Source: Notolepis coatsorum (taxonomy: Eukaryota; Chordata; Actinopteri; Aulopiformes; Paralepididae). Taken from it: a DNA stretch of 64,000 nucleotides. Of this stretch, positions 12,662 through 46,904 are shown piece by piece (the first letter of the stretch is position 1; every line of letters starts with the position of its first letter). The notes beneath the pieces are model-generated. The model did no database searches. It was not told where the DNA came from and saw nothing but the letters and a program-made list of their open reading frames with translations. Location: positions 17,718,823 to 17,782,822 of the forward strand of contig OZ020591.1 in assembly GCA_963971535.1 (NCBI GenBank). Reading direction: 5' to 3'. The translations under genes and the position numbers were made by a program.

Positions 12662-12814
12662 CTGTGTCTCCAGCGGGTTGGCTAGGAGGAGGATTCCGGG
12701 GGTGAGACTTCATGTGGGTGGTAATTCGTCTGCGGATGTCAACAGTATAGGGACACTGTAGACATCTATACAGGCCCCCGGTTTTCTCCCATAGAATGCG
12801 TTTGAAGGACAAGC
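12662..12814 (-). CDS. Putative C2H2 zinc-finger exon A (153 bp)
   Basis: On the minus strand a pyrimidine tract ending TTCTATTCTACAG precedes the exon, which ends GACACAG before the donor GTGGGC. Both borders are phase 1. The 51 codons encode one classic C2H2 finger, C-x2-C-x12-H-x3-H, reading YRCLQCPYTVDIRRRITTHM followed by KSH, with leader WEKTGGL and tail NPPPSQPAGDTG. Helix residues at -1, +3, +5 and +6 are I, R, T and T. Four further copies (B 25463, C 31795, D 41783, E 46755) keep the zinc ligands and splice sites but differ at the helix. The likely role is nucleic-acid binding as a single finger or as part of a multi-finger protein. No start codon belongs to the exon itself. The upstream SINE tail ends only about 30 bp before the acceptor. 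Confidence 0.55.
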
Positions 12815-12846
12815 CTGTAGAATAGAAAACAGGGGACTGATTAAAC

Positions 12847-13105
12847 TGTGCATTTATATGGTAGCAGCTTTTATCCAAAGCACTTTACAATATTTGTTCC
12901 TCACATTCACCCATTCACTCACACATTCACACACCGATGGCAGAGGCAACCATGCAAGGTGCTGACCTGCTCATCAGGAGCAGTTAGGGGTTAAGTGTCC
13001 TGCTCAAGGACACTTCGACATGCTGCCCAGGGGGAGCGGGAATCGAACCGGGAACTTTCCAACTAACAGACGACCGCTCTACCTCCTGAGCCACTGTCGC
13101 CCCAA
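12847..13105 (-). mobile_element. tRNA-derived SINE upstream of exon A
   Basis: Minus-strand SINE with the tRNA-like head near 13035-13105 (A box GTGGCTCAGGAGGTAGAGC, B box GGTTCGATTCCCGCT) and a body with GTCCTTGAGCAGGACACTTA. Its tail ends at about 12847. Orthologous copies precede zinc-finger exons B (25650-25893), C (31985-32225), D (about 41980-42098, continued at 43869-43965) and E (about 46955-47070, continued at 48840-48935). Confidence 0.75.
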
Positions 13106-13277
13106 TTACTGAATTCAGCAGCAGATCCACCTGTATGCCTTTGACATAACAAATTTAGTAAGGGGGGCGGAGCCAGGCGGCATGGGATAAGGACGTGTTT
13201 CATAGCTGCTCCCGTATACTTTGGAAAACACACTTTTTACCCCTATAGTTTTTGTTTTATTTTAGTTTTTTTATTAA

Positions 13278-13747
13278 CTCATTCTGCGCCAATGATGAAA
13301 AAAGTCAGGTTAACTCACCATCGCTTGAGCGCCAATCACGAGAAAAGTCGGGTTTTAATCGTTATTTCTTTTATTAGCTATATCCATAAATTTTTCATCC
13401 ATCCAGCCTGATGTTATCATTGGGAATGGGTCTGAGCTTGCAAAGGGCAAATACAGCCGGTATTGCACATCATTGAAATCCCTCCCCCTTGGGCTGTACG
13501 CTGATCTGAGAAGTCCGGGCGGGGTATTCCTACGTTATTACACAGAGTTTGGGGAGACTCGGAGCAGCGTGGATTATGCCTTTTGGACATAATGTTCGAT
13601 CAATAAACACAATCAATATTTGGAATGGCGATCAGGAATTGGATTCATCTTTTTGCATTACATCAGAGACAAGGTAAGGACACTATATATCCAATCTTGC
13701 GTTGATCTGATATTTCTTTCTCCGGTACAAGCCCCATTTCAGTATAA
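13278..13747 (+). mobile_element. piggyBac-like element, right end lost
   Basis: Follows a TTAA (13274-13277) at exactly the point of the L1 5' UTR where the element at 49115 also begins. The interior shares TTTATTAGCTAT, CAATAAACACAATCAATATT and GGAATGGCGATCAGGAATTG segments with the other copies. The right end is missing: sequence passes straight into ORF1 codons near 13748, so the ORF1 start was deleted too. Confidence 0.6.
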
Positions 13748-14227
13748 CGGAGGAGATAGGAGCGGCTATTAAGATGGTGATGGAAGAAGTTAAAACACTT
13801 CAAGAAAGAGCCTTGGCTAACGATGAGATCGCCTCTCTCCCAAAGGAAGCCACAAGGCAGAGTCTACAGCTACACAAATTACAGAGGGCCTTAACCAATG
13901 TTCCCTCTAATTATTTTTTGGTCTGAGCAAACACTCAAACCTCCTGAGCAGACATCAGCAACTACTGAGCAACATACGCCACCTGCCGATTAACCGGTTA
14001 GTTGATATGCTGCGGTTTGTAAAAAATCTGAGAATCTTAATTTCCCTTAATGTCTAACATAAAAATATATACATTTTGCTGATACACAGAGAAATAATAC
14101 AAAAAGGCATATTATATTCCTTAATCAAATATTTATTTGACCATTGATTGACGATACCGAGCATAGTCCTTACTTTGGCTGGGTTGGCGGCGGCGGTGTG
14201 AGTCGTGTCACTAACTTTTGGTTTTAA

Positions 14228-15211
14228 ATTCATCATAAATTCATTAATTTATTTATTCAAGCGAGGCATTGCAATCCTTGACATAAATCATTTGATGTAT
14301 AATTAAATCAAAGGAAATGCGTTTGGGTCTGAGAGTGTGGCTGGTCTGCCGTTCTGATGCTGGATACTATTGGTTTGTTTTGGCAAAATTCTTCTGCTCT
14401 GTGTGACAATAAATAAATGAATGATGATATGCAATTTAAAACCAAAACTAAAGCCTCAGTATGAGTTTAAGACGTGAACATGGTCATGTTTGTTGAATTA
14501 AAAAAAAAAAGGAAAAAAAAAATCTATTTTTTTTTTTTTTCAACAAACATGACCATGTTCACGTCTTAAACTCATACTGAGGCTTTAGTTTTGGTTTTAA
14601 ATTGCATATCATCATTCATCATAAATTCATTAATTTATTTATTCAAGCGAGGCATTGCAATCCTTGACATAAATCATTTGATGTATAATTAAATCAAAGG
14701 AAATGCGTTTGGGTCTGAGAGTGTGGCTGGTCTGCCGTTCTGCAGCTGGATACTATTGGTTTGTTTTGGCAAAATTCTTCTGCTCTGTGTGACAATAAAT
14801 AAATGAATGATGATATGCAATTTAAAACCAAAACTAAAGCCTCAGTATGAGTTTAAGACATGAACATGGTCATGTTTGTTGAATTAAAAAAAAAAAGGAA
14901 AAAAAAAAAATCTATATATTTTTTTTTTCAACAAACATGACCATGTACACGTCTTAAACTCATACTGAGGCTTTAGTTTTGGTTTTAAATTGCATATCAT
15001 CATTCATCATAAATTCATTAATTTATTTATTCAAGCGAGGCATTGCAATCCTTGACATAAATCATTTGATGTATAATTAAATCAAAGGAAATGCGTTTGG
15101 GTCTGAGAGTGTGGCTGGTCTGCCGTTCTGATGCTGGATACTATTGGTTTGTTTTGGCAAAATTCTTCTGCTCTGTGTGACAATAAATAAATGAATGATG
15201 ATATGCAATTT
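14228..15211. repeat. Tandem 386/388-bp units with long hairpin arms
   Basis: The segment GAGGCATTGCAATCCTTGAC recurs at 14263, 14649 and 15037, giving periods of 386 and 388 bp. Each unit junction holds inverted arms of about 80 bp (for example about 14422-14504 and 14540-14620) around an A-run/T-run loop, so each junction can fold into a long hairpin. A further arm lies at 17981-18060, beyond the L1. Units are almost identical, so the amplification is recent or homogenised. Confidence 0.9.
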
Positions 15212-15329
15212 TGTATTAATTATTTTTATTATTTTTTAAACAAACATATAAACAAACATGACAACACACGATAAGATATACAAGCATTAATTGTCAGGGC
15301 ACATCCAATGAGATCACATTTTAGTTAGT

Positions 15330-15955
15330 TGTCTTATATATATCAGTTTTGGACTATGGTGATGTAATTTATAGGCATGCTGCGGCATCAACTCTTAAAC
15401 CTCTGGATTCTGCATATCACTCAGCTCTCAGATTTATAACTGGTGACAGATATGATACTCACCATTGTGTCCTGTATGATAGGGTGGGTTGGCCTTCTCT
15501 TGCAGAAAGGCGCAACAAACACTGGTATTTATTTATTTTTAAAGCCCTTATTGGTAAACAACCTGTTTATATCTCCTCACTGTTAAATTGGAATATTGGA
15601 ACCTATTCAACTCGATCGAATGACTGGATGGTTCTTAGGGTTCCTCAGATTTGTTCTGAGTTAGGGAAGTCAGCCTTTTCCTTTGATGCCTCTAACTCAT
15701 GGAATGTCCTTCAACTCACGCTAAAATTGGAGGTTCTCCCTTCCCTTGGAATGTTTAAATGTATGATTTCAGACCATTGTGTGACTACCTGTAACTGTTT
15801 TAGTTGATATTTTAAAATTATTTTTAAACGTTTTTAATTTGTTTTACTCTGGTGTTTAAATTTCTGTGAATATTGTTTTTATTATGTACTGTACAATCGT
15901 CGTTTCTGTAAATGAGGGAAACCTCAGATGCTTACGATTTTAAATAAAGGTTGAA
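15330..15955 (+). mobile_element. LINE 3' fragment nested in the L1 3' UTR
   Basis: Plus-strand frame 15349-15807 encodes the C-terminal tail of a non-LTR RT of the L2/Rex1 type: LDYGDVIYRHAAASTLKPLD, RFITGDRYDTHHCVLYDRVG and AFSFDASNSWNVLQL are recognisable. It is followed by a 3' UTR ending AATAAAGGTTGAAATGAA. It interrupts the antisense L1 3' UTR, whose two halves resume at about 15325 and 15960. Confidence 0.8.
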
Positions 15956-16091
15956 ATGAAATATAAGATATACCCCTAATACCTGTTATCTAAAAAACCT
16001 ACACACATATGCTCCAGCTCGAACCCCCCCCTCCCGGACCCCACCTTGAGAAGTACCTCCACTATCCCTCGCACCTAACCAGACACTACCA

Positions 16092-17980
16092 TTATAAGCT
16101 AGCTTTTATTCTCTCCACCACTTCTAACCACATTGACATTTTGGATTCATTGAGACCCAGAATTCTTGCTGTAGATATTTCATGGTAAATTACATCGAGA
16201 TATGTAAGAAACCAAACTTTACGGCACATTTTTTCCGGTTGAAACCAGCGTGATGCGATCAGCTTTTTAGCTACTGTGATACCTGATAAAACCAATCTCT
16301 TTAGCTGTGGATTCACTGCAAACTCAAAAACATCATTCAATAGTAATACCGAGGGGTGTACAGGTATATTCCAAGATACGAGTTTTGATATTTGTTGGGT
16401 CACATCTTTCCAGAATGCCTTAACTGGTGAGCAGTCCCAATACATGTGCATAAATGTCCCTTCGTCCCCATTTGTACATTGGGAGCATTTGGAGTCTTGT
16501 TTAAGCCCCATTCGGCACAGTCTTATAGGAGTCAAGTATGTCCTGTGAATATAGTTAAGATTGATTTGTTGATGATCCGGGTTCCTTGATGTAAGTCGGA
16601 CATTTGCCCAGGCTCCTTGCCAATCAAAGTCATTTTCCAGGTCTGGTATATCCCTCCTCCAGACAGAGTCTAGTTGGAGGGTTTCATACGAGGACGTTAG
16701 TAATTGATGATAAAATTCTGAAACAAAACCTCTCTATGTCTCTCTTTCGTAGAAGAATTTGTGGTATCTGTGGTGTTCAATTGGTCTGTCTAATGGAACA
16801 CTGTGAGACTTCAAACATAGCTCTAACTGTTTGTAAAAAAGCCATGTGGACTTGGTGAGATAAAATCTTTTGCGTATTTCTTTATCACTACAAAAACCCT
16901 GTTTGTTAAAAACATCCCCTAATGAGTGTATGCCTTGCTCTTCCCATATAGGGAATCTTATAGGTCGTTTTCCAATTAAGAGTGCATTGTTATTGAATAA
17001 GGGAGTATGATTGTGCCATTTTTGTGGGTTAGGATTTTTTTTTTGTGATTCACGCCATATCCGGATCGCATGAGTAATTATGGGGCCAAATTTTCATTCA
17101 CAGTGCTTGATTGGTAGTTTAGTGTATGCTATGTCCTTCAGTCTATGTGGGGCTACTATGTTTTCTTCTAATTTTCTCCAGGATACTAATGCTTGGGGGT
17201 CAAACCATGTTGTCAATGGACTTAATATGTACGCCTTAAAATATAGGAAAAAATCTGGAAATGCCATGCCACCATCTGCTTTATTTCTCTGTGTGGTGGA
17301 TCTTTTTATACGTGGTGGTTTGTTATTCCAAATAAATTTGTATGTGGAGGAGTGTAATCTTTTCGAGTAACCCTCTGGAGGGGGTAACGGTAGCATTGAA
17401 CTGAAGAAGTTGATTCTAGGTAGTACATCCATCTTAACTATTGATATCCGTGCTTGTACTGTGTTTTTAAGTTTTGCCCATCTATCAAGGTCGTCTTTGA
17501 TTTTGTTTTGGATTTTTGTGTAGTTGTGCTTCACCGTTTGTCTTATGGTGGGGAATATTTCCACTCCCAAGCATCTGAAATGTTTTACCATCGGTATCTC
17601 TCCTGGGAGGGTTGTATCTTTTTTTGCAGGGGTGTTAAGTGGAAGGAAAGCTTCGGCCAATTTATCTTAAATCCCGATAAATCACCAAAGTCCTCAATCA
17701 ACTTGAGCAGATGAGGCAATGTGGTGTTGGGGTTTTGCATGAACAATATTACATTGTCCGCATATAAACTAATTTTTTGTTGTGTGCCCTTGATTACGAT
17801 TGGTTCTATGGATTGGGATTGTCTTATATATTGTGCTAAAGGCTCTAATGATAGATTGAACAGTCCGGGACTAAGAGGACAACCCTGTCTGGCTGAGCGT
17901 GATACCGGAAAGATTTTGGAGATGATTGTGCCTGTTGTAATCATGGCCGATGGGTCTTTGTATAATACTTTAATCATATC
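16092..17980 (-). pseudogene. L1 ORF2 remnant (RT and C-terminal domain)
   Basis: Minus-strand frames encode, from 17980 downward, VLYKDPSAMITTGTIISKIF, then [19 protein letters not shown], then the active-site motif as YADNVILF, then the RT thumb and the L1 C-terminal domain with CSQCTNGDEGTFMHMYWDC, ending at 16092. The second catalytic aspartate is replaced by Asn (YADN). At least three frame or stop interruptions split the frame, near 17585-17660, at 17094 and near 16535-16600. The protein would be the L1 reverse transcriptase; this copy is dead. Confidence 0.88.
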
Positions 17981-18189
17981 GATGATATGCAATTTAAAAC
18001 CAAAACTAAAGCCTCATTATGAGTTTAAGACGTGAACATGGTCATGTTTGTTGAATAAAAAAAAAAAAGTAAAAAAAAAAAAAAAAAAACCTTTTTTTTT
18101 TTTTTTTTTTAGCGACCGATTTCAGATGTGCGCGGGAGCGTTTTGCCATGTGCGCGCGCGTGCACGGGCGCACCTTAGGGGGAACATTG

Positions 18190-18735
18190 CCCTTAACCGA
18201 CAAGCAGGCAGAGACGACCAAGATGCAATCCAGAATCAGCTAACTGCAGTCTCGGGAGAGACGCTTCAATATAAGAATCGTTGGAATCCCTGAGGGCACA
18301 GAGGGGAACCGTCCTTCAGACTTCATACCCGGCTTACTGCAAGGAATATTGGGCAAAGATGTCCTCCCTAATCCCCCGGAATGTGATGTAGCCTACAGAG
18401 CTAACCTGGTGAGGCCTGCTAAGGACCAGAGACCCAGACCGATCGTCGTGAGACAGCACAAGCTACAAACAAAAGGAGCTAATCGTCCGAGCGGGCCGCT
18501 CCAAAAGAGGAGATTTACGTTATGAAGAACACAAGGTCGCCATATTTGAGGACTATATTCCAGAAGTGTTGGCACAGAGAGGGGAGTATCGGGACGCCAT
18601 GTTCAAGCTATGGAAGTTGGGCTGCAGACCAGCATTGCTTTTCCCGGCAAGTCTGTCAGTGAAGCTGAGGGATGAGGAACGGAGGAAGTTTTGGTCGCTT
18701 CTCGAGGCTGAGGAGTATCTTAACGTCTTTATTAG
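18190..18735 (+). pseudogene. L1 ORF1 C-terminal part (nucleic-acid binding)
   Basis: Continues the ORF1 that was split at 13895. Frames read GIPEGTEGNRPSDFIPGLLQ, then PAKDQRPRPIVVRQHKLQ, and, in a second frame, FEDYIPEVLAQRGEYRDAMF, KLWKLGCRPALLFPASLSVK and LRDEERRKFWSLLEAEEYL. This is the conserved C-terminal half of L1 ORF1 protein, which binds RNA and acts as a chaperone in the retrotransposition particle. A TAA after residue SRIS and a frameshift near 18478 are both shared with the copy at 52090-52966. Confidence 0.8.
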
Positions 18736-19255
18736 TCATAGTGTATATTTACCAATAGGTTAATGTGTTATTAGTGAGATTTTAGTTTATGGAATGTGTT
18801 CATAATTTAGCGAATATCCGCCATTTAGAATTTGTGTCACAATTTGATTAGGAAAGGACATCCAGAGCTCTCAATGAGTATTGAAATTTCGAAAAACTAA
18901 ATTACACAGCGAATGCCAGCTTCCTGCAAGCAAATGACTTGTGGCTGATTTTTTTTTATTTCTCTTATTTTTTGGGATTATCTACCACAAAACTGAACGT
19001 TATTGGCATATATTAGTTTGTCTACCTTCTGTGAACGTTTAGCAACCATCCGCGTCTCAATCCGATAAAAAATGGCGGACCTGTCTCAAATTTAAAACGG
19101 ACTGTATTTACAGTAGATTTCATTCACGGTTCTTGCTGCACGGCTGGTGATACTAAATCCAAATTGAACTCTGCCATTTGAAAGAGGAGATTTGGCCCGA
19201 TCCATAGATGTGCAATTTGGCTATAATAAGGTCATTTATAGGCCTGATGTTCTAT
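18736..19255. other. AT-rich sequence with no recognised feature
   Basis: Diverges from the L1 copy at 52920 and shows no frame longer than chance, no tandem structure and no recognisable transposon ends. It may be old intergenic or intronic DNA. Confidence 0.5.
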
Positions 19256-19261
19256 ATTATA

Positions 19262-19545
19262 TTGGTTCTCAACCTTTTTACACCAAGTACCACCTGAGAA
19301 CGTAGCTGGCTCTCCAAGTACCACCATATGACTGACGTTAAAATACAGTCTATTCAGCTATGCACAGTTCACACAGGAGGCAAATGTATTCCTAATACCA
19401 TTATTTATTGTTAACTTTTGTCAGACACAGCCACAATGTACAAAGGGGTAGCACTAGAACTAGCAAACTCTTCCACACAACTCAAACTAACATTCTCACA
19501 TAGCAAGTGAGAAAATTAAGAACAACTGTATTTCAGCAAATGTAC
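19262..19545. mobile_element. hAT (Charlie-like) end remnant
   Basis: Contains TTGGTTCTCAACCTTTTTAC followed by ACCAAGTACCACCTGAGAA, a known Charlie-type terminal pattern in vertebrates. Only one end and some internal DNA are present. At its right begins another DNA-transposon-like end (GGGCGTTTTCACACCTG near 19552), into which the LINE at 19600 appears to have inserted. Confidence 0.45.
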
Positions 19546-19599
19546 TTAAGGGCGTTTTCACACCTGTAGTTCGTTTGCTTTGTTCCGATTCAGGGAGAC

Positions 19600-22313
19600 A
19601 CTACTACAGCTCGGCATTCAATACCATAGTCCCCTCCAAACTCATAGCCAAGCTCAGGGACCTGGGCTTTAAACTATGACCTCTGCCAGTGGGTCTTGGA
19701 CTTCCTGACGGGCAGACCCCAGGTGGTGAGAGCAGGCAACTGCACCTCCTCATCCATCACCCTCAACATAGGGGCCCCCCAGGGCTGTGTTCTGAGTCCC
19801 CTCCTCTACTCCCTGTACACACACGACTGTGTGGCTCAGCGGAGTAGCAACACAATAATCAAATTTGCTGATGACACAGTAGTTGTAACTGAGGGGTTAC
19901 AAAACCCTGACTGTATTAAAGATTGTGATAGATTAAACCACTGCTAGTTATGTACTTTAATTACTGGCCAGACAGTACATCAAATATAGATGATGAACAC
20001 TCAAAGAACACGGCATTGACAAAGAAATAGTATTTGAGGGTATTTTATTATTATGCAACATTAGGTTACAGAATGAGAATTAGGGTCGCGCTTGTATGGC
20101 GAAGAATATGCGTAAAGTCAGTCAGCAGCATGAGTCACTGGGAATAGCAGGATTCCTACGATGGGTCTAAGTTGACGCCACCGGTCGTATAATAGCAACT
20201 ATATAAGGCAACGCTAGTACCGCCTGGAGACAATGGGTTCCCTCCGGGGTGTAATGCCTGGAGGGTAGAGGAATGTTCGGATACTCAGTCTGATTCAATG
20301 AAGAATAAAGAGACTCCACGTACAGGAGTCGGTCCTTGTAAATCCCACGATCAGCAGCAAAGCAATAGTTGTAATCCAAATGCTCGATAGCACTGATGAC
20401 AGCTAGCCAGCCTCTGTCCATGAGGCCAGCCCGAGTTGTAATCCTCACGAGGTTGAATCCCAAACGATAGTGGAAATCAACGAGGCTCTTCTCCGGGTAA
20501 CACGTTCCAAATCAATATAATCCAACCAGTAATGGTTCTGCAATCGCCGACGCTGGTTCTCCTGTGCACATGTCCAACGGTTCTCCGACTAGGCATCCTC
20601 GGGTGCGGGCGACGTATTTAGGCCACACACCCTGGCTAAGGTACACTAGCTAAAACACGACGAACCGCTGGGTAATGCTACACACGAACGAACTGTGGTT
20701 GCACGATATACAATAAATGAACGACTATTTACTTCACATTAGATTAGGTCGAACTTGATGTTACTGCATTAAACTCTGACACTTTACTATTCTATTCGCA
20801 CATGTTCTCAACGCACGAGGGCTCAATTTACACGATGAACTACGTTGGCTTGTTTAGATGGACAAGCAGGTGATCGGTCGGGTTAGATACTGCTGTGCGC
20901 ACCTTGCGCTGTATATATACTTAGCGATTATCTAGTCCCAAACCGCAGTCCTTGTCTGGGATCAATACGCTGTCTCCGGGCATGTTCTGACATGCCTGAA
21001 CTTGTCTTTGAACCTGACGTTGGGGGCCTGCGAGGTGGCGCCTAGGGCGCTGTCCAATAAGGAGAGCGAATATTACTCTGGTTTGAACGCAGGTAAAGGG
21101 ATATTCCGTGTATATATAAATAATATACAAAGTATATCAAACAATAAAGGTAGATTCTCAGTTTTAATCTGGCCCTTCACAACAGTAGTGATGGGCCTGA
21201 TCTCTGCAAACGACGAGAGGGCCTACCTGGAAGAGGTCAAGGTCCCGGGATGGTGCCAGGAAAACAGCCTCTCCCTGAACGTCAGCAAAACAAAGGAGAT
21301 GATTGTGGACTTCAGGAGGTCGGGGGTCAAGGACTACAGCCCCCTCAGCATCGACGGGGCACCGGTTGAGAGAGTGAACAGCTTTAAGTACCTCGGAGCC
21401 CACATATCCGAGGACTTGACATGGACCACACACATTGACAGTGTTGTGAAGAAGGCACGACAACGCCTCTACTTCCTCAGGCGCCTAAGGAGGTTCCAAG
21501 TCAGTCAGAAGATCCTTAAGAACTTCTACTCATGTACAATAGAGAGCATCCTGACTGGCAACATCACCTCCTGGTTTGGGAATAGCACTGCACAAGACCG
21601 AAGCAGACTACAAAGAGTGACACGTTCAGCCGAATGCACAATTGGAGGGGGGCTCCCCACCCTCCAGAACATTTACAACAAGCGGTGCAGGGGCAAGGCT
21701 AAGAGAATCATTAAGGACTCCAGCCACCCGAACAACTGCCTCTTTGAACTGCTGCGGTCAGGCAAGCGATACCGGAGTCTCAAGGCGAGCACAGAAAGAC
21801 TCAGAAGAAGCTTCTATCCCCAGGCCATCAGGCTGCTCAATGAACAATGAACACTACACAACAACCATCAAACGCACATAGCACACACATCCACACGCAC
21901 ACACTCACTTTAAACAAACACACTGCAGCACCCACTCTCCACACTTTATATTTATTGATAAAGGATTTGCACTACAACTCGTACACCTTACTGTAAATTG
22001 TACCTAAATTGTACCTCATCCCATTTCTGCTTTGCACTATATAGTATTGTATATTAGTACACTGCATAGTATATTGTATATTATATGGTAACTCAGTTAC
22101 GTCTATTCTGCATCGAACATTGTACATATGTCTATACTGAACACTGTGACCTCATTTTCTACTTCTAATTTACATGCTATACTATGTTATTTGATACTTA
22201 TCTTGTCTAGCACAGTCTCTGGAGCGTAACAGTAAGAAGCATTTTGTATAAAAGTATTCTGTACTTCTGTATGACAACTATTAAAGAAACTTGAAACTTG
22301 AACACAGGGACTA
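19600..22313 (+). mobile_element. Jockey/Rex1-type LINE split by a solo LTR
   Basis: The RT domain begins near 19600 ([15 protein letters not shown], one stop near 19677) and continues as [33 protein letters not shown] and [11 protein letters not shown] up to 19878. After a 1.3-kb insertion it resumes at 21185 with GLISANDERAYLEEV and runs to 21850, ending FYPQAIRLLNEQ. A 3' UTR with CACACA, AATTGTACC and TATTAAAGAAACTTGAAACT repeats ends near 22313. The FADD catalytic motif is intact, but the 5' half, with the endonuclease, is missing. Family placement is by motif style (jockey, CR1 or Rex1 group) and not certain. Confidence 0.85.
19884..21184 (+). mobile_element. Solo LTR, likely Gypsy-type fossil
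   Basis: A 1301-bp insertion that starts TGTAACTG and ends TTCACAACA, with 5-bp target duplications GTAGT at 19879-19883 and 21185-21189. A TATA-like sequence (GTATATATAC) is near 20910 and an AATAAA near 21142, consistent with U3-R-U5 order on the plus strand. No internal coding region is present, so it is the product of LTR-LTR recombination. The clean duplication and preserved ends suggest moderate to young age. Confidence 0.75.
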
Positions 22314-24117: not shown

Positions 24118-24157
24118 CATTTTGACCTGGTCTTAATGTGGACCCCGAGCGTCTCTC
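24118..24157 (-). pseudogene. Decayed copy of the 78-bp exon
   Basis: On the minus strand the acceptor (TCTGTTTCAG) and the first bases GAGACGCTCGGGGTCCAC match the exon at 11038, but after about 20 bp the sequence degenerates and runs into the hAT element. Its intron flank (24158-24640) is conserved with block A. It could not encode the full peptide. Confidence 0.55.
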
Positions 24158-25950
24158 CTGAAACAGAACAGACAGACGCACACCACACACTCATTGTTAG
24201 TTGTATTCAAAGCATTCTATATAGATACGGTTTCATTTTAATATTAGAGTTCTGTATCATGTTATGAGCATGTCAGTATATATATGGTTTGCTTTGGCAA
24301 TGGTAAAAATAAAGCCTTGTTGAACTTGAGTTAGAAACGAAAACCCACAAACCAAAAGTATTATATAAGCAGATATCAATTAGACATAGCAGCGGTTTTT
24401 ATAGATTGAGGGGAGGAGCCTAATTTCTGATGATGACGAGATTACATTAGGCAGAAAGAAAACAAAAATAACAGTAAATTGTCATTTTACTCTGAGCAAA
24501 ATCACATAAATTTAATTACTTTCTCTGAATGTTTTGTTTTGTAGCAGGTCGTTTTGTTATAGCCGCCAGCTTTAGTGATCTAGATGTCCCCGTTCAAAAC
24601 CACCGCAGTGCTCCATCTCCTCATCATATAGTCTCTGTCTTTACTAGATGGAAAGGATCACTGCCAAACCCAAGGCTAATAAATGGAGGCTAAGTCACCA
24701 GTCAATCATTCAATGGGAGATGGGGGTACGGGCACATGCTCAGATTTCCCTGTTGGAGTGTTGGGCTGTAAATGGTGCATTTACTGTATATAGCAGCTTT
24801 TATCCAAAACGCTTTACAATTTGTTCCTCACATTTGACCCATTCACTCTCACATTCACACACCGACGCGGAGGCAACCATGCAAGGTGCCAACCTGCTCA
24901 TCGAGACGACCGCTCTATCTCCTGAGCCACTGTCGCCCCAATTACTGACTGAATTCAGCAGCAGATCCACCTGTTGGTGGCCTTTGACATACAAATTGTA
25001 GTAAGACCTAAAAACACAGATCTATGATCATTTATAAGCATGCTCATTATGAAGAGCGGGAATCAAACCGGGAACCTCCGGATTACCAGATGACTAGTAA
25101 TGAGTACCGTTCATGTACTATTTCACAGTCGGAACCTTGTTCGTTCCCGTATACCAGACATCAAATGAGCTGGGAAATTACACAATGTGAATTATAAAAA
25201 CAGAATAAGTGGTGCGATTTATAATCTTATAAAAATAGAGAGCAAAAGAAACAACAGTTACAACCTGTGAATTGATCGTGGGAATAAAAAATTCAAACGT
25301 ATTTTCATCCAGTCGGTTCCAGATGTTATTGAACCGGTTCCCGGTTGGAAAACGGGTCTCGGTTCCCGACCCTAGTAGTGACACGAGTTAAGTCTTCCTG
25401 ATTGAACGCCAAGAACTAAGATTCATTTGGACACAAAATTAGGTGTTTGCAAACAGGCCCACCTGTGTCTCCAGCGGGTTGGCTAGGAGGAGGATTCCGG
25501 GGGTGAGACTTCATGTGGGTGTCCATTTTTCTGCGGACGGAAACAGTATAGGGACACTGTAGACATCTATACAGGCCCCCGGTTTTCTCCCATAGAATGC
25601 GTCTGTTGAAGGACAAGCCTGTAGAATAGAAAACAGGGGACTGATTAAACGGTGCATTTATATAGCAGCTTTTATCCAAAGCACTTTACAATATTTATTC
25701 CTCACCCATTCACTCACACATTCACACACCGATGGCAGAGGCAACCATGCAAGGTGCTGACCTGCTCATCGGGAGAAGTTAGGGGTTAAGTGTCTTGCTC
25801 AAGGACACTTCGACATGCTGCCCAGGAATCGAACCGGGAACCTTCCAACTACCAGACAACTGCTCTACCTCCTGAGCCACTGTCGCCCCAATTACTGACT
25901 GAATTCAGCAGCAGATCCACCTGTTGGTGGCCTTTAACATAAAGATTGTA
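24158..25950 (-). repeat. Duplicated block B
   Basis: Same order as block A: intron with GGTTTGCTTTGGCAATGGTA, SINE (24775-24942, with an internal deletion), SINE-head fragment (25055-25100), TCGGGAACCGAGACC segment, zinc-finger exon B, SINE (25650-25893). It lacks the LINE insertion found in A's first SINE. The block ends at the L1 start AAGGACTTCCGGTGATGACG (25955), shared with C but not with A, D or E. Confidence 0.85.
25463..25618 (-). CDS. Putative C2H2 zinc-finger exon B (156 bp)
   Basis: Acceptor TTCTATTCTACAG and donor GACACAG/GTGGGC are identical to exon A, and phase 1-1 is kept. The finger reads YRCLQCPYTVSVRRKMDTHM followed by KSH, with leader NRRILWEKTGGL. Against exon A there is a 3-bp insertion in the leader and eight base changes, all within the nine codons between the second Cys and the first His. 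They change five residues (D-S, I-V, R-K, I-M, T-D), and the remaining roughly 120 bp is identical. The helix code (-1, +3, +6) is V, K, T. The exon is fully open and would splice in frame with any other copy. Confidence 0.55.
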
Positions 25951-30531: not shown

Positions 30532-32285
30532 TTCTGTATGATGTTATGAGCAAGTCAGTATATGGTTTGCTTTGGCAATGGTAAAAATAAAGCCTTGTTG
30601 AACTTGAGTTCGAAACGAAAACCCACAAACCAAAAGTATTATATAACCAGATATCAATTAGACATAGCAGCGTTTTTATAGATTGAGGGGAGGAGCCTAA
30701 TTTCCGATGATGAGATTACATTAGGCAGAAAGAAAACAAAAATAAGAGTAAATTGTCATTTTACTCTGAACAAAATCACACCACATTGAATTACTTTCTC
30801 TGAATGTTTTGTTTTGTAGCAGGTCGTTTTGTTATATCAGTCATCTTTAGTGATCTGGATATCCGTTCAAAACCACCGCAGTGCTCCATCTCCTCATCAT
30901 ATAGTCTCTGTCTTTACTAGATGGAAAGGATCACTGCCAAACCCAAGGCTAATAAATGGAGGCTAAGTCACCAGTCAATCATTCAATGGGAGATGGGGGT
31001 ACGGGCACATGCTCAGATATCCCTGTTGGAGTGTTGGGCTGTAAATGGTAAATGGTGCATTTACTGTATATAGCAGCTTTTATCCAAAACGCTTTACAAT
31101 TTGTTCCTCACATTTGACCCATTCACTCTCACATTCACACACCGATGCGGAGGCAACCATGCAAGGTGCCAACCTGCTCATCGGGAGCAATTAGGGGTTA
31201 AGTGACACTGCCGGGGAGGAGCGGGAATCGAACCGGGAATCTTCCAACTACCAGACGACCGCTCTATCTCCTGAGCCACTGTCGCCCCAATTACTGACTG
31301 AATTCAGCAGCAGATCCACCTGTTGGTGGCCTTTGACATACAAATTGTAGTAAGACCTAAAAACACAGATCTATGATCATTTATAAGCATGCTCATTATG
31401 AAGAGCGGGAATCAAACCGGGAACCTCCGGATTACCAGATGACTAGTAATGAGTACTGTTCATGTACTATTTCACAGTCAGAACCTTGTTCGTTCCCGTA
31501 TACCAGACATCAAATGAGCTGGGAAATTACACAATGTGAATTATAAAAACAGAATACGTGGTGCGATTTATAATCTTATAAAAATAGAGAGCAAAAGAAA
31601 CAGTAATTACAACCTGTGAATTGTTCAAACGTATTTTGATCCAGTCGGTTCCAGATGTTATTGAACCGTTTCCCGGTTGGAAAACGGGTCTCGGTTCCCG
31701 ACCCTAGTAGTGACACGAGTTAAGTCTTCCTGATTGAACGCCAAGAACTAAGATTCATTTGGACACAAAATTAGGTGTTTGCAAACAGGCCCACCTGTGT
31801 CTCCAGCGGGTTGGCTAGGAGGAGGATTCCGGTCGTGAGACTTTATGTGGCTGTCCATTTTTCTGCGGACGGAAACAGTATAGGGACACTGTAGACATCT
31901 ATACAGGCCCCCGGTTTTCTCCCATCCAATGCGTCTGTTGAAGGACAAGCCTGTAGAATAGAAAACAGGGGACTGATTAAACGGTGCATTTATATAGCAG
32001 CTTTTATCCAAAGCACTTTACAATATTTATTCCTCACCCATTCACTCACACATTCACACACCGATGGCAGAGGCAACCATGCAAGGTGCTGACCTGCTCA
32101 TCGGGAGAAGTTAGGGGTTAAGTGTCTTGCTCAAGGACACTTCGACATGCTGCCCAGGAATCGAACCGGGAACCTTCCAACTACCAGACAACTGCTCTAC
32201 CTCCTGAGCCACTGTCGCCCCAATTAATGACTGAATTCAGCAGCAGATCCACCTGTTGGTGGCCTTTAACATAAAGATTGTAGTA
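30532..32285 (-). repeat. Duplicated block C
   Basis: Same order as A and B, starting inside the intron at GTATGATGTTATGAGCAAGT. It contains a SINE (31060-31293), SINE head (31405-31445), TCGGGAACCGAGACC segment, zinc-finger exon C, a SINE (31985-32225), then the same L1 start as block B. No copy of the 78-bp exon is left: the DIRS-like DNA replaces it. Confidence 0.85.
31795..31950 (-). CDS. Putative C2H2 zinc-finger exon C (156 bp)
   Basis: Splice signals and phase 1-1 are as in A and B. The finger reads YRCLQCPYTVSVRRKMDSHI followed by KSHDR, with leader NRRIGWEKTGGL. Differences from exon B are L-G in the leader (two bases in one codon), T-S at helix +6, M-I after the first His and P-D after the last His. 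All are amino-acid replacements and none is silent. The helix code (-1, +3, +6) is V, K, S. Both zinc-ligand pairs and the hydrophobic core are kept. Confidence 0.55.
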
Positions 32286-35745: not shown

Positions 35746-35747
35746 AA

Positions 35748-38739: not shown

Positions 38740-38759
38740 AGGGGGGGTCTTATCTTATT

Positions 38760-39200: not shown

Positions 39201-39282
39201 AGATCAGCTTGGTGGCATGTTTATCCAAAGCAACTTACATGTTTTGTACAACAAGACAGCAGTGTAGGTTCGTTTTTTTTCC

Positions 39283-39388
39283 ATTTCAGATAATGAAATC
39301 TTTTTCCAGTCAACATCTAGTTGTTTTTATTTCAGATAATGAAATCGTTTACCAGTCAACATCTAGTTTTTTATATTTCAGATAATGA
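39283..39388. repeat. Three tandem copies of a ~49-bp unit
   Basis: TTTCAGATAATGAAATC followed by CCAGTCAACATCTAGTT occurs twice in full and once in part (39283, 39332 and 39377). A small minisatellite immediately left of the TTAA element. Confidence 0.8.
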
Positions 39389-39420
39389 TTGAAGAAGTGT
39401 GTCTTTAGTCGACACGTTAA

Positions 39421-40299
39421 CACATTGGGCGCCGGGGGTTGTGCCCATCTTATACCACTCTCTGCCACCGTTGAAAGCCTATGTAGATGTCGATTATCTA
39501 TCGTTCAGGATGTGGGAACGTTATATTTTTTCATTCATACATTGTTGTGTTAATACCTTCGAGAATAAGTATGTTTTTAATCTTTTCTGCTGTAATTCCA
39601 AAAACAGTAGTTATAGGCCCTGAAGCATAATAGATTATCGATTGGCGTTTCTTTCCCATACACGCTATATTAAAAAATTCAAATGTATATGATCGGTATA
39701 CATTATGCTTCATCATGCGTGGAGGAAAGGGGGGGGGGGGGGGGTCGTTTATAATTCCTTGATCGTCAGTAACGGCTTTATGTAGTATGGGTGGATATAT
39801 TGATCAGACTGTTTGCAAACAAGGAAATGCACAATCGGGTTGAAAATAACATTACTGCCCCCTTACCGTGCGCCGATGAGACTGGCGGAGAAAGATCCCA
39901 ATTATTCGACGACGATCACCTAGATCCATTTCCGGTTTGTATGGCACAATAAACGCCAAAATCATATTGATTTTTGCTTTATGGCAGCGATCCATATGTA
40001 CTATAGTGTTTGTCAGGAGTCCCGTAGCAAGATGTGACTGCCGGAGGAATTTCCTCGACGCACGATGACACTTTCCGGTTTTTGAGTGTGTAACTGGCCC
40101 GACCATCCACCAGGCGGCGGTATTGAGCCGTTGCAGTCCCATTTAGGGTCCCGCTAGGGCACCGGGGGCTGGGTGGAGGAATTATGAATGCCATGGCGAA
40201 AAAATTAAATATTGATCTCAAAAACGCTGTACAGCGATGTTGGCGGTCAACGCATGGTGGGCAATATAACGCTGGAAAGCGATTTTGGCAACCAATGTG
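39421..40299. mobile_element. piggyBac-like TTAA element (879 bp)
   Basis: TTAA at 39417-39420 and 40300-40303 flank inverted ends CACATTGGGCGCC and GGCAACCAATGTG. TTAA target sites are the signature of piggyBac-type transposons. No transposase frame; a G-run of about 16 lies near 39729-39744. It has inserted into the second gene region of the ISL2EU element. Confidence 0.8.
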
Positions 40300-40689
40300 T
40301 TAAGGACAGCATTAGCTGTTACAGGCTGGTCTACAGCTCCACCCTGTGGGCATACTGAGCCTGTATAATATCTAATGTATAAAAGTATAATGTCTCACGT
40401 CATGGAAAAGGTGTGGTATGTTTACTTGTGTTCTGAAATACACAGCATTGTAGACACAACCCGACTCATTTATTGTACAAACATTAGCTAGCTAGCTCAT
40501 TCATTCATTCATTCATTCATTCATTCATTCAGCTTGATAGGATGATAAACATCATCCAAGTTAGCTAACGCTGTCGTTAACGTTAGCCATTTGTTGTCGT
40601 CGACTAACGACGCACTTCTTCAATCATTATCTGAAATGAAAAAGAATAACTAGATGTACGATTTCAATAGCAATAACAACTTGATATTA

Positions 40690-40975
40690 CAAAAAGCAGA
40701 ACGTACCCAGCAGTACATGAACAAGCTTGGTCCACAATATTGTGCTCGTCGAACTTTACATAGAGCTCATGTGGTTTCTCACTCTTGCACTGCGACCTAT
40801 ACGCTAGTGCCTCTATTGTGGTTGTGCCTCCATCTTTCTGCATCTTAATGCTGTGGATATATCCCTCCATGGCATATTGTAGCCCCTTTTGTCGGGACCT
40901 GGAGGATATTGCAGCGTTATTTCTCCAAAATGAGTCTGTTAAGGCGACTGATACGTTACGGAGACCCTCCATGGT
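40690..40975 (-). pseudogene. ISL2EU second gene, SWIM-finger exon
   Basis: The minus-strand frame reads MEGLRNVSVALTDSFWRNNA, then YAMEGYIHSIKMQKDGG, then YRSQCKSEKPHELYVKFDEH and ACSCTAG, where a donor-like GTACGT ends the exon. The CSCTAG piece is the start of a SWIM zinc finger (CxC...CxH), and the rest would lie in the next exon. This matches the auxiliary protein encoded opposite the transposase in ISL2EU elements. The exon itself is intact. Confidence 0.6.
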
Positions 40976-41782
40976 GGCTTTGTTGAATTTCAGAATCCCG
41001 GAAGTGTTGCGGTGGTCTATATGGCTCTCAGCTTGTCGGACGTAGCAACAGTAACCAAGGGGGGCCTGGCTTTGAGAAAGGTCAATTACTGACTGAATTC
41101 AGCAGCAGATCCACCTGTTGGTGGCCTTTGACATTATGTTTATTTTTTGTGTGTAAATAATGTAATGTAAAAAGGGTAGGCAATTATAAGCCTCGGCTTC
41201 AGCCTACACCTTTTCGGTAATTTTATTTATTTTTTAGTTTTAATTTTTTTTTATAGTACTATGCTTTGTAGAATCAGACCGAAATAAAATCATTCATTCA
41301 TTCATTCATTCAAGAGCGGGAATCAAACCGGGAACCTCCGGATTACCAGATGACTGCTCTACCTCCTGAGCCACTGTCATCCAAAAAGGGCTGGAGACTG
41401 TTTATCCGACTCAGTAGACTGTACCGTTCATGTACTATTTCACAGTCGGAACCTTGTTGGTTCCCGTATACCAGACATCAAATGAGCTGGGAAATTACAC
41501 AATGTGAATTATAAAAACAGAATAAGTGGTGCGATTTATAATCTTATAAAAATAGAGAGCAAAAGAAACAACAGTAATTACAACCTGTGAATTGATCATG
41601 GGAATAAAAAATTCAAACGTATTTTCATCCAGTCGGTTCCAGATGTTATTGAACCGGTTCCCGGTTGGAAAACGGGTCTCGGTTCCCGACCCTAGTAGTG
41701 ACACGAGTTAAGTCTTCCTGATTGAACGCCAAGAACTAAGATTAATTTGGACACAAAATCAGGTGTTTGCAAACAGGCCCAC

Positions 41783-41932
41783 CTGTGTCTCCAGCGGGTT
41801 GGCTAGGAGGAGGAATCCGGTCGTGAGACTTTATGTGGCCGTCCATTATTCTGCGGACGGAAACAGTATAGGGACACTGTAGACATTTATACAGGCCCCC
41901 GATTTTCTCCCATCGAATTGGGAAGGACAAGC
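41783..41932 (-). CDS. Putative C2H2 zinc-finger exon D (150 bp)
   Basis: Acceptor and donor are identical to the other copies, phase 1-1. The finger reads YKCLQCPYTVSVRRIMDGHI followed by KSHDR, with a shorter leader FPIRWEKIGGL. The helix code (-1, +3, +6) is V, I, G. Relative to C it changes the leader, T-I, R-K, K-I at +3, S-G at +6 and N-I in the tail; again every change is a replacement. Its exact duplicate E differs by a single base, which also changes helix +3. Confidence 0.55.
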
Positions 41933-42098
41933 CTGTAGAATAGAAAACAGGGGACTGATTAAAAGGTGCATTTATATGGTAGCAGCTTTTATCCAAAGCA
42001 CTTTACAATATTTATTCCTCACATTCACCCATTCACTGACACATTCACATACATGCAAGGTGCTGACCTGCTCATAGGGAGCAGTTAGGGGTTACGTG

Positions 42099-43868
42099 CA
42101 GTGTTTCCCCTACCATTGCCTTGGCGGGGCCAACGGGACCCCGCCCCCAACGGAAAAAATTATAATTATAAAAAAAGTAAAGATTTCTTTTTTAAGTTTG
42201 CTTTAATCACTAACGTTGACGAGCTAGCTAAATTATATAAAAACTAACTGGATAGTTGATATAAGTTGATATATGAACTGGATAGTTCATAAGCCATTCT
42301 CCCTTTCTGTGTGTGTGTGTGTGTGCGCGCGTGCCCGTCCCAACTCTGGTCTTTGGAAAGTTTGATATTTACTGAGGATGGCCAGATAATGTTGATATTT
42401 AAACTTAAAAAATTATTATACAGAGAGAAGCTTCAGCAAGTACAAAACGCTGTAGTGCTGAGTCTGACTGACAAAAGAGAATCTCTCACTAAGGAAAACA
42501 CAAAGGCCTAACCATCATGTATCACAATGGGGATGTCAGCCAGAGATGGGGAGAAGCATGAACCTTTAAAGGACATCTTTTTGAAATAAATGAAATTTCT
42601 TTTTGATCCACTTTTTCTCCCATTTTCTATATTTTTCTCCCATCCCAATTTCGTATCGTCCAATTCAACCCTCCCCTGTCACGGACGCTGTTTCTTGCCT
42701 CCCACAAGCCGGCTGCAATGTGGACTAAGTCATACATAGCACAAGTCCCCTCCGGTACTTGAGGTAACAGCAGTCGCATCTTTTCACCTGCGCAGCTCGA
42801 TCTCTCAGTGGCGAGGAGTAACGCGTGGGAGGCTCACGCTGCCCCCGACACTTCCTGATTCTACTGCGCAGGCGCACCAACCAACCTGTAGGAGTCGCTG
42901 TCCACAACGCCCGATCCCCACCCATCAGTTTCCCACCCCCTAATACGGCCAATGTGTATTAGTACGGACGACCAGCTAAACTGAAAGCAATGTGGAGCGC
43001 TGGGCTCGAACAGGCGAGCCCAGCGTCTCCAGTATTCGTGGCGAGCGCCTTGCCCACTACGCCACGTAGCCGCCCTAAATAAATGACATTTTACAGATTT
43101 TTTCTGATTTCTTTTAAACAAATTATTATTTTGTATTATTTAACCATTTAATTATTATTTAGTTATTGCACTGCACTGGCAGTTGAACTGCATTCAACTG
43201 AACTGAATTGAAAAAAAGAAACCTCATAACTGAACTGGCACTGAACATTGAACTACACTGCAGATGTACTGTTAATAAAGTTAGTTAAAAACATGATTTT
43301 GTATAGTTTTTTTTTTGTTAAATCCAAAGGAAAAAAAATAGAAATCAGAGAAATCCGAAAACAGGTAAATTAAAAACTGAGAAATCCGAAAACAGGAAAA
43401 GATTAAACGGAATTCATAGGGCCCTAGTTAAGGTGAGTTAATAAATGCACTCTGAAAATCTGCTCCGCTCTGATAAACTGACTCTTTGGTCAGAGCGTCC
43501 AGTGTGCACTCTGAGCCCTCAGAACCTCAGAACAACTTGAGTGCGCTCGCTCTGACACTGGTTGTAAATAGTTATGAGTGTTGTATGTGCCTCCCTGTAT
43601 TGTAAATAGTTCATATGTGTGTTGTCACTACTGTATGTATAATTGTAAATAAGTTAATTTATGTGTTGTAATAAGCCTAATCTATGTGCAATCGTTTAAT
43701 TTCAGCTCAGTGTAGAGAAATGCACAGATTCTAACAATCGTCTTACTGCGCGAGTCTATGACGACACTGTTGACACAACGTATCCGTGACACGCGTGCCC
43801 CGCGAAAACACTAGTAGTTTTGGGGGGCCTACCACCCCCCCCTGAAAAAAATCCCAGGGGAAACACTG
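42099..43868. mobile_element. hAT-type element with nested SINE (unit 1)
   Basis: Inverted ends CAGTGTTTCCCCTACCATTG and TCCCAGGGGAAACACTG. It interrupts the SINE upstream of zinc-finger exon D, whose halves resume at 42098 and 43869. The right target duplication is imperfect. A SINE of the second family (42599-43076) lies inside, with target duplications AAATAAATGAAATTT and AAATAAATGACATTT. The same element is duplicated at 47071-48839. Confidence 0.85.
42599..43076 (-). mobile_element. tRNA-derived SINE, second family
   Basis: Minus-strand head GGCGGCTACGTGGCGTAGTG, B-box-like GTTCGAGCCCAGC, body with AGGAGTCGCTGTCCACAACG and a GGGATGGGAGAAAAAT-type 3' end. 15-bp target duplications with one mismatch. 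Duplicated at 47569-48046. Confidence 0.85.
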
Positions 43869-44030
43869 TAGTGTCTTGCTCAAGGACACTTTGACATGCT
43901 GCCCAGGAGCAGGAATCGAACCGTGAACCAGACAACCGCTCTACCTCCTGACCCACTGTCGCCTCAATTACTGACTGAATTCAGCAGCAGATCCACCTGT
44001 TTGTGGCCTTTGACATAAAAAAATTAGTAA

Positions 44031-44705
44031 GGGGGGCGGAGCCAGGCGGCATGGAATAAGGACATATTTCATAGCTGCTCCTGTATACTTTGGAAAACAC
44101 ACTTTTTACCCCTATAGTTTGTTTTATTTAATTTTTTTATTAACACTTTGAATGCCCAACCAGAGTTTTCTCGGGTTTACCCCACGCGGGTTGAATGCCC
44201 ATAGCGAGAATATTATTTTGTTCTTGTTTTTTTTTATTAGCGATCTGAATTAATTTCATCAACCGAGTCTACCGTAAATCAGCCACCCCAGGCGCCAGGT
44301 GTGAAAAAAGCACCCCCTATCGTCTCCCAGATGGTAATTCACCCTTTTGGATTGGACTCAATGAAAAAGCATGAGAGAAAAAAAACCCGGACACCACATT
44401 TTACTTCTCACGCATGTAATCGGGGCCGATCAGCTTCATGCTGGACCCTCAGCACGGCGTGGTTACTGTGTTTTACAGTACGTAGCATTGGATCAATAAA
44501 AGGATAGATTTTCGGAATGGCGATCAGGAATTGGAATAATCCATTTGGATACCATCTGATCTCAGGGAAGGAATCTATTTTACCAGTCTTAGGATAATCA
44601 GACCTGTTTTCACAGAGATATAAGCGTTTCCCCTATAATGTGATATGGCTGTTTGACTCTAAGAGCGATCAGGAACTGAGAGAATCGATTTTCAGCGCGC
44701 GGCAC
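44031..44705 (+). mobile_element. L1 5' UTR with piggyBac-like left end (unit 1)
   Basis: The L1 start GGGGGCGGAGCCAGGCGGCA runs to a TTAA at 44140-44143, where the left end of the TTAA element begins (CACTTTGAATGCCCAACC). It is the duplicate of 49002-49686. The sequence ends at the deletion junction near 44705. Confidence 0.75.
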
Positions 44706-46055
44706 CAGCGTGCACACGTCCAGCCAATCACCGCTTCTTTTCACCTGGCAGCGCGGATTCTCATTGAGAGGGCGTAGCGTGTGGGAGGACCACACTATCC
44801 CCCTCAAGTCCAATCCGCGCTTAGCAGGCGCCCCGACCGAACTGTAGGAGTCGCTGTTTACAACGACCCGGACCCACCCCGCCAGCTTCTCCCACCCTCT
44901 GATACAGCCAATTGTATCAGTGCAGACGGCCAGCCAAGCTGGTGACAACCCCGGAGCTGTGAGCTGGATTCGAACAGGCGAATCAAGCTCACAGCTCCGG
45001 GGCTGGTGACGAACGCAATCTCCGCTCGACCACCTAACCGCCTAGCACGATATTTTCTGACCTTTCGGCGATACACGATACACATCACAATGTTTTTCTT
45101 TTTTACCCCAAACAATTCATTATGAGGCTTACCAAGACAGTATTTGAGTTTGCAAGCTAACATTAAAGACAAAATAAAATACCCATGCATTTAGCATTTT
45201 TATATTAGATTTAGATTATTAGATTATATATTGCATATGAGATATTATATGATTTAGATATGAAATATGATGAATTGAAAATGGGGGACCCTGATGTAAA
45301 CAAGACTAAAGTCTTTCTCTGGTCTGCATCCCCTTAACAATTGTATGTATTGAGCTGTACTGTACCCATTCTGCAATATGTTAAAGTTTTAAATCAATCA
45401 ATCAATAAATAGCATTTTAGCATTTTTATGAAACTACTGTATATATGTATGTCTCTAAATGTTTTGATGAATTGAAAATAGAGGACCCTTATGTAAAAAA
45501 GCCGAAAGTCTTTTTCTGGTCTTCATCCTCCTGTACTGTATTGTACCCATTCTGCAACCTTTTAATACAGTTTTCATTCATTCATTCTGACGGAAACATA
45601 ATAATTTTGATTGACAGTCGAGTCTGCCAATGACATCACACCGCTTGCACCCGCCCTGCTGTTCTTAGCACCAATCGGCAAGCGTTATTCGTTTTTGACT
45701 TCCTGAATGTCCCGTGTGCTGAACATCAACAAAGCTACTAACGTTAGCTCCCCGCGGCCGTCGAGTAGGAGACCAGTGCCTCACAGGATGACTAAATGAG
45801 GCATAATGATTTTACTACAACGAATGTTATAATAAAAGCCTTTCCATACATCTGTCTGATTGAAAACTTTATTAACAGACCGCGGAATGGTCATATCTCA
45901 GCACAGGCTGAGATATGAACGAGTAACGTGTGGACAGATTGACGCGACACAATCCTCTTGGGCAAAACATCACGATATCCACGATACGTTGAAAAAGTGT
46001 ATCGTTAATGAACTGTACCCGATATTTATATAATATCGTCATATCGCCCAGCCCT
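44706..46055. mobile_element. Truncated hAT and SINE (unit 1)
   Basis: Deleted version of the hAT at 49695-51242: its left end and the 3' part of the nested SINE are gone, and the SINE head (44706-45046) and hAT right part remain. The right inverted end CGCCCAGCCCTA is at about 46042-46053. It includes two LINE tails (45270-45415 and 45466-45590). Confidence 0.8.
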
Positions 46056-46754
46056 AACGTACACATATACTATCGATAATCTAGCGTTTATTTGAAAACG
46101 ATTATGTTTATTTTTTGTGTGTAAATAATGTAATGTAAAAAGGGTAGGCAATTATAAGCCTCGGCTTCAGCCTACACCTTTTCGGTAATTTTATTTATTT
46201 TTTAGTTTTAATTTTTTTTTATAGTACTATGCTTTGTAGAATCAGACCGAAATAAAATCATTCATTCATTCATTCATTCATTCAAGAGCGGGAATCAAAC
46301 CGGGAACCTCCGGATTACCAGATGACTGCTCTACCTCCTGAGCCACTGTCATCCAAAAAGGGCTGGAGACTGTTTATCCGACTCAGTAGACTGTACCGTT
46401 CATGTACTATTTCACAGTCGGAACCTTGTTGGTTCCCGTATACCAGACATCAAATGAGCTGGGAAATTACACAATGTGAATTATAAAAACAGAATAAGTG
46501 GTGCGATTTATAATCTTATAAAAATAGAGAGCAAAAGAAACAACAGTAATTACAACCTGTGAATTGATCATGGGAATAAAAAATTCAAACGTATTTTCAT
46601 CCAGTCGGTTCCAGATGTTATTGAACCGGTTCCCGGTTGGAAAACGGGTCTCGGTTCCCGACCCTAGTAGTGACACGAGTTAAGTCTTCCTGATTGAACG
46701 CCAAGAACTAAGATTAATTTGGACACAAAATCAGGTGTTTGCAAACAGGCCCAC

Positions 46755-46904
46755 CTGTGTCTCCAGCGGGTTGGCTAGGAGGAGGAATCCGGTCGTGAGA
46801 CTTTATGTGGCCGTCCATTGTTCTGCGGACGGAAACAGTATAGGGACACTGTAGACATTTATACAGGCCCCCGATTTTCTCCCATCGAATTGGGAAGGAC
46901 AAGC
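46755..46904 (-). CDS. Putative C2H2 zinc-finger exon E (150 bp)
   Basis: Duplicate of exon D within the 5-kb tandem unit, with identical splice sites and frame. The only difference is one base: ATA in D is ACA in E, giving YKCLQCPYTVSVRRTMDGHI. This changes helix position +3 from Ile to Thr. The helix code (-1, +3, +6) is V, T, G. It is the most upstream finger exon, in the minus direction, visible in the window. Confidence 0.55.

Follow-up and report, generated by a model that had tools for sequence, protein, structure and literature searches.

A probable three-locus zinc-finger gene family with amplified single-finger exons in Notolepis coatsorum

What kind of gene carries its C2H2 zinc fingers one to an exon, kilobases apart, is the question raised by a stretch of 64,000 nucleotides of the Notolepis coatsorum genome (the window, C23:17718823-17782822). 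An earlier reading of these letters (the sequence-only reading) described five minus-strand finger exons and offered a repertoire of alternative exons, a multi-finger gene or a cluster of young paralogues as explanations. Follow-up across the 3.42-Gb assembly supports the multi-finger gene, and with it coding exons and fast-changing contact residues. Taken together, the exons probably form part of a small gene family with loci on three contigs, C23, C33 and C49, in which modules of a finger exon and a second exon have been amplified and the finger helices selected.

The five finger exons of the window share strand and phase (1-1). Exon A (12662..12814, 153 bp) has a helix reading D I R R R I T T from position -2 to +6. 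Exons B (25463..25618) and C (31795..31950), of 156 bp each, read S V R R K M D T and S V R R K M D S, and exons D (41783..41932) and E (46755..46904), of 150 bp each, read S V R R I M D G and S V R R T M D G. Finger E lies in a unit that is a tandem copy of that of D. Neighbouring fingers are 5-13 kb apart. All five exons are bounded by ...TTCTACAG on the AG side and GTGGGC on the GT side, and none contains a stop or frameshift. Re-reading bore out the coordinates, strand, phase, C-x2-C-x12-H-x3-H ligands and helix residues reported before. It had also been said that A and B differ by eight substitutions; these do all fall within helix codons, all of them replaced, but a 3-bp indel was left uncounted. 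The statement that the copies differ mainly in the helix was generous, because only about half of the variable exon columns (10 of ~20) lie inside the 24-bp segment for helix -2 to +6 and the others elsewhere in the exon. A codon comparison agrees that no silent difference exists across A-E. Among gap-free columns, 20 of 150 vary in the exon compared with 21 of 450 in the flanking intron (Fisher p 5.5e-4), so that the exon excess is not due to chance. Pair by pair, p is < 0.001 in four of ten pairs, 0.015 in one and at least 0.05 in five. At the intron rate ~5 replacements would be expected, against at least 22 changes required (P < 1e-7) or, counted by changed codon, 15 events (P 2.7e-4 to 5.2e-4), all by a rough Poisson estimate.

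The finger exon occurs 17 times in the genome: five times on C23 (those in the window), four on C33 and eight on C49. A second finger query returned the same 17 at E <= 1.2e-8 with the next match at 0.65, i.e. the family has a clean edge. In 17 of 17 the finger is its own exon, as had been noted for the window, and all are 135-165 bp in phase 1-1, a multiple of three in length, without a stop, with near-identical AG/GT splice sites and on one strand. There are 15 distinct sequences. The C-x2-C-x12-H-x3-H ligands are present in 15 copies, while 49f and 49g carry H-x4-H, a spacing that also occurs in some C2H2 fingers. Blocks that are 96-99% identical run in the same order on contig C33 (935 kb) and in the window, and C33 is for this reason either the other haplotype of C23 or a recent duplicate. 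Several transposon coding remains lie in the region, and a transposon carrying the finger was one of the cases in which the sequence-only reading would have failed. With only 17 copies in 3.42 Gb, confined to three loci, one strand and the interior of arrays, such an origin is ruled out, and we give it practically no probability. An Rfam scan of the window gave no matches, and an IMG/VR scan with the finger gave 21 pattern matches and no relatives. A three-frame Pfam scan of the minus strand at 9-54 kb of the window recovered one finger (E 0.017) and missed the other four; the other matches were two to reverse transcriptase and two weak ones taken as chance.

On C49 ten exons of a second type share the strand of the eight fingers, and the two types alternate in 13 of 17 neighbour pairs. 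Ten internal second-type copies that were read are 78-87 bp, divisible by three, carry KV repeats ahead of EE(TE) and have the same 1-1 phase as the finger exons. The window has an intact copy downstream of finger A (10961..11038, minus strand, 78 bp, phase 1-1), which reads GEPLGVHYTPGPTGQNLKVQEETERL and has the acceptor TCTGTTTCAG and the donor CTGG/GTGAGA. The sequence-only reading had listed a 78-bp exon; its role as a member of a second exon family among the fingers went unrecognised, as did the terminal repeat exon, the gene on C49 and the differences between the loci. The only other second-type sequence among the five fingers is a broken copy (24138..24157, minus strand), in which unrelated sequence takes over after the start of the exon, as it does in the C33 copy at 735846. 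A further copy lies on C23 15 kb past the window end. The second-last codon of this otherwise conserved exon varies (R, D, A, G or H) among C49, C33 and the window.

Each locus has a single terminal exon, which continues into GYLAVSGHLNDPSF, the open frames at the three loci being 1036, 539 and 286 aa. In the window this is a second-type exon (5902..8963, minus strand) running into GYLAVSGHLNDPSFPGSS and ~84 in-frame RPHP(S)SEPLSSS repeats, the copy stopping at 5902. Just upstream of the C49 array, on the same strand, are three C2H2-type single-finger exons, reading IPCTLYGCKRVYNDVAAFDGHISDH, VFLCTTTGCGGSFPNMQKLMEHMRHHH and CENCRAKLRSYRGLLTHLHTC, the last followed by a proline-rich stretch. 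They have AG/GT borders, and their phases (1, 2, 1) connect them and the first array finger, ...AVWRKNQGLSFNSRILWEHTGGLYRC, in one open frame. The second and third of them, the two that were searched, each occur once in the genome, on C49. A PDB search with one upstream exon found other C2H2 proteins, the best being ZNF410 at 5.1e-12. Based on the alternation on C49, the one terminal exon per locus and the in-frame upstream fingers, this looks like a multi-finger gene in which the final finger exon has been amplified in tandem along with the exon that follows it. The window would hold part of the array as a copy, in which two of the C49 5' exons are missing.

The same layout bears on whether the units are instead complete young paralogous genes, one per finger. 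The units are indeed tandem segmental copies, those of D and E being ~4.97 kb each. However, the surroundings of D and E yielded no second-type exon, so that this exon is not in every unit, there is one terminal and one 3' exon per locus, and two of the C49 upstream exons occur once in the genome. The single terminal and 3' exons and the single-copy upstream exons contradict complete paralogues, and the cluster of young paralogues proposed before is very improbable. The exons might also be alternative cassettes, with one or a few fingers per transcript and a repertoire of proteins from one locus. The finger exons and the second exons read are all in phase 1-1 with near-identical splice sites, so that skipping is frame-neutral, and the wide spacing of the window fingers would also suit such a use. 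The interposed second exon on C49 is, however, equally compatible with serial inclusion. The repertoire of alternative exons in the sequence-only reading keeps its basis in phase, shared by every array exon; we regard it as unlikely.

Selection on the two exon types appears to run in opposite directions. Codon models were fitted in IQ-TREE (GY+F3X4), the fit at a nonsynonymous to synonymous rate ratio (dN/dS, omega) of 1 being the better of two kappa values. Identical copies were dropped from the finger set. The second-exon set excluded the terminal, broken, C23:17797768 and C33:779534 copies and two C49 copies that duplicated one already included; the variable block of KV repeats was also removed. 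The finger exon has an omega of 9.8 (log-likelihood -566.06, against -576.64 at omega 1), with the helix codons at the program bound of 50 and the remaining finger-exon codons at 5.0; the second exon has 0.37. Over 136 finger pairs the mean proportions of replacement and silent differences (pN and pS) are 0.115 and 0.015, and pN exceeds pS in 131. In 14 clean copies the exon distance is 0.094 compared with 0.028 for the intron, and is larger in 87 of 91 pairs; for these distances 49b was dropped from the 3' flank, where it is non-homologous, and 33b and 49e from the 5' flank. The comparison of dN/dS with intron divergence that the sequence-only reading had proposed favours it when run genome-wide, and silent changes are rarer than replacements; equal frequencies, together with unused splice sites, were what it had said would count against it. 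Among the 17 copies, helix positions +3 (R, K, I, T, Q, E) and +6 (T, S, G, I, R, K, V) take six and seven residues, -2 takes D, S, H, T or N, -1 takes I, V or T, +4 takes M or I and +5 takes T, D or E, while +1 and +2 are constantly R, R. The residues altered here are those that contact DNA in classical fingers. Selection appears to keep the zinc ligands, the frame, the splice sites and the second exon and to alter helix residues of the DNA-contact type.

Four of the window fingers can be paired by position with C33, finger E having no C33 counterpart of its own. These pairs show 11 replacement nucleotide changes and no silent one. Codons differ at -2 and +3 in A, at four sites including +6 in B, at none in C and at three including +3 and +6 in D; the flanks differ at 1/445, 15/422, 5/425 and 3/445 sites in the same order. 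At five exon columns A and B stand together against the other three fingers, a grouping seen at no flank column, although large structural features are common to B and C; on C33, the position of B is occupied by the sequence of exon C. Exchange of sequence between copies is therefore likely, given the conflict between exon columns and flanks and the exon C sequence at the B position of C33.

Such exchange is also what would be predicted if the window copy were a decaying tandem duplication, untranslated, with its replacement bias produced by conversion or local hypermutation. The absence of two C49 5' exons, the interrupted terminal segment and the broken second exon fit decay, as does the grouping of A and B at five exon columns and no flank column. 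Intact frames in all five fingers and the absence of any silent change do not, and conversion or hypermutation alone should add silent changes: the probability of none in 20 is 0.0009-0.0038, or 0.005-0.015 if 15 codon events are counted. We consider decay improbable. That the changes in the window copy are all replacements suggests that it is still in use.

Several observations weigh against the reading of the three loci as a family with selected helices. The second and third C49 upstream exons are absent from C23 and C33, where the alternation of fingers and second exons is irregular, and in the window one second-type exon is broken and the terminal segment is split by insertions. The repeat tail of the window has no frame with a clear silent excess, i.e. 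no codon-level constraint. None of the eight finger copies scanned, of 17, reaches the Pfam C2H2 cut-off; the best match is to zf-C2H2_7 at 23 bits (cut-off 27, E 8.3e-5), and PF00096 scores are at most 17.9 bits (cut-off 25.2). Without the helix, the variable columns are 20/120 in the exon and 55/428 in the flank (p 0.18). Silent differences (pS 0.015) are rarer than intron differences (0.028), which helix selection does not explain. Between C23 and C33 the exons are not clearly more diverged than their flanks overall, only A and D being so, and the C pair is positioned via a neighbouring block only. Finally, dN/dS estimates from trees are unreliable where repeats exchange sequence, a caution also given in PMC3890296.

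The amplified array probably grew with the help of repeats. A tRNA-type repeat, which we take to be a short interspersed element (SINE), lies just upstream of finger A (12815..13109, minus strand), with a same-orientation copy past the finger at ~12190-12260. The homology common to all five window finger units stops inside such same-orientation repeats on both sides, which suggests unequal exchange mediated by SINE-like repeats. Divergence between units ranges from 8 substitutions in 4969 aligned bp for D and E, of which the one in the exon is a replacement at helix +3, through 44 in 2370 aligned bp for B and C, to 88 in 1841 aligned bp for A and B, the last figure including a poorly aligned stretch at the upstream end. 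A very young tandem duplication of ~4.97 kb (window 41133-51289) doubled finger D into D and E. The simplest history would be amplification of a last finger exon and the exon following it, with a partial copy on C23 and C33.

The proposed family would work as follows. In its most complete-looking member, on C49, three finger exons would lead in frame into an array of modules, each a finger exon of ~50 residues and a conserved exon of ~26 residues (GxPLGVHYTPGPTGQ..LKVKEETE), and the array would be closed by the single terminal exon with its repeat tail. The array would have arisen as the original last finger exon and its downstream neighbour were duplicated in tandem, probably with the aid of the SINE-like repeats beside the finger, and exchange between copies probably continued. 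All modules are in phase 1-1, and therefore gain, loss or skipping of one preserves the frame. Spliced into one mRNA, the modules would encode a nuclear protein carrying many fingers at wide intervals, which may track a fast-changing target, either DNA (e.g. repeats) or protein. The VKEE stretch of the second exon fits the SUMO-acceptor consensus and would suit a repressor. A stronger claim, to which we give about an even chance, is that this is a hypervariable recognition gene, grown from a conserved single-copy gene, with modules of variable finger exon and conserved exon spread over tens of kilobases, PRDM9-like selection on helix contacts, gain, loss and exchange of whole exons, and differing finger sets per haplotype. 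This would make the gene the exon-shuffling equivalent of the PRDM9 and KRAB-ZNF arrays, one in which contact-residue selection acts on separate finger exons and the neighbouring exon, under purifying selection, serves as an in-gene control. The array would test whether contact-residue diversification requires a compact array, and the gene would be a candidate genome-defence or meiotic recognition factor, traceable in populations of the species.

Fast evolution of contact residues is already known in PRDM9, FiNZ-ZNF and KRAB-ZNF genes. In mouse Prdm9 fingers, PMC3890296 gives positions -1, 3 and 6 as the most diverse and position 2 as invariant; here too +3 and +6 are the most variable and +2 is fixed. 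However, the PRDM9 array is a tandem coding minisatellite, whereas these exons stand in long, transposon-filled introns with another exon between them, and Pfam scans of the minus strand at 9-54 kb of the window and of 10 kb upstream on C49 found no PR/SET or KRAB-like domain. KRAB-ZNF genes and the FiNZ-ZNF genes of fish are described in PMC10547256 as having recently duplicated fingers whose contact residues are under positive selection, with a single effector exon and all fingers of the array in one further exon. The young duplicated fingers and the selection on contact residues are shared. The differences are one finger per exon in 17 of 17, no known effector domain, and ~30 residues between fingers, or ~57 with an intervening second exon. 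Dscam-type tandem alternative exons are similarly homologous, in frame and in a single phase, but mutually exclusive choice would be hypothetical in the present case, where members of the array are separated by a conserved exon. In the titles and abstract openings of the open-access papers searched, no exon-per-finger diversifying array with an interposed conserved exon was found.

A possible identity for the C49 gene is ZNF414, a single-copy vertebrate zinc-finger gene, which its layout presumably resembles in the order of upstream exons, in a finger with a proline-rich exon and in a last finger with a WEHT lead-in. The present gene differs in that the last finger is present eight times on C49 and nine times at C23 and C33, and we know of no ZNF414 with an amplified last finger.

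The 3' end is less regular in the window than on C49. After ~0.9 kb of other sequence beyond the main repeat array, the remaining repeats and a QAAATVPQSGVST segment occupy 4888..5026 (minus strand), followed by an insertion (~4450-4886) without a counterpart on C49. Beyond this lies the end of the terminal coding segment (4330..4404, minus strand), whose C49 version is GVCSHLAERYNPKTLTSFVRQ. The segment is entire on C49, and only its second half is matched on C23 and C33. An in-frame RPHPSSEPLSSS repeat follows GYLAVSGHLNDPSF on C23 and C49. Coding constraint was rejected as a conclusion from the window repeat tail alone, for want of a frame with a clear silent excess; its place behind the corresponding exon at the other loci is the sole reason for counting the tail as part of the gene. 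A candidate 3' exon, AVDVSGASGMDRVDRLAEFLVGLRSQRCLTLSDQQVRNI (3595..3711, minus strand), follows a C-rich acceptor, reads SGASGMDRVDRLAEFLVGL... and has three genome copies, one per locus. Its one Pfam match has E 0.16 and its best PDB match, a 'Rab family protein', 1.8e-4. A minisatellite of 15/17-bp units, GACATGAAACACAAC, fills window positions 1-1413, and a similar repeat lies past the gene 3' end on C49 near 1994496.

Beyond the other end of the array, an acidic phase 1-1 exon, DPPSDLLMIKKEEAQDTLDPIMDISTGLKEEPTDHQDIS, lies at C23:17800125-17800262, ~17.3 kb past the window end. On C23 it precedes a second-type exon by 2.3 kb and on C33 by 8.8 kb, and no copy was found in the 200 kb of C49 examined. 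Its family is large (150 copies scored, out of 820 candidates), with many copies on C21, C13 and C1, and in 4.5 kb around another copy, including 4.3 kb downstream, no fingers were seen by eye. It may encode the N terminus in a large family of genes, and may, as a candidate only, be the first exon of the window copy, given its position near the C23 and C33 arrays. Two minus-strand open reading frames at 57886-59421 and 55490-57192 of the window look by eye like a non-long-terminal-repeat element, the former with a Pfam OSK domain match at 2.7e-8. A further open reading frame at 20936-21850 appears by eye to be reverse-transcriptase-like and has a Pfam ALKBH8_N match (1.5e-16), a label that probably denotes a transposon segment, because the same match recurs upstream on C49.

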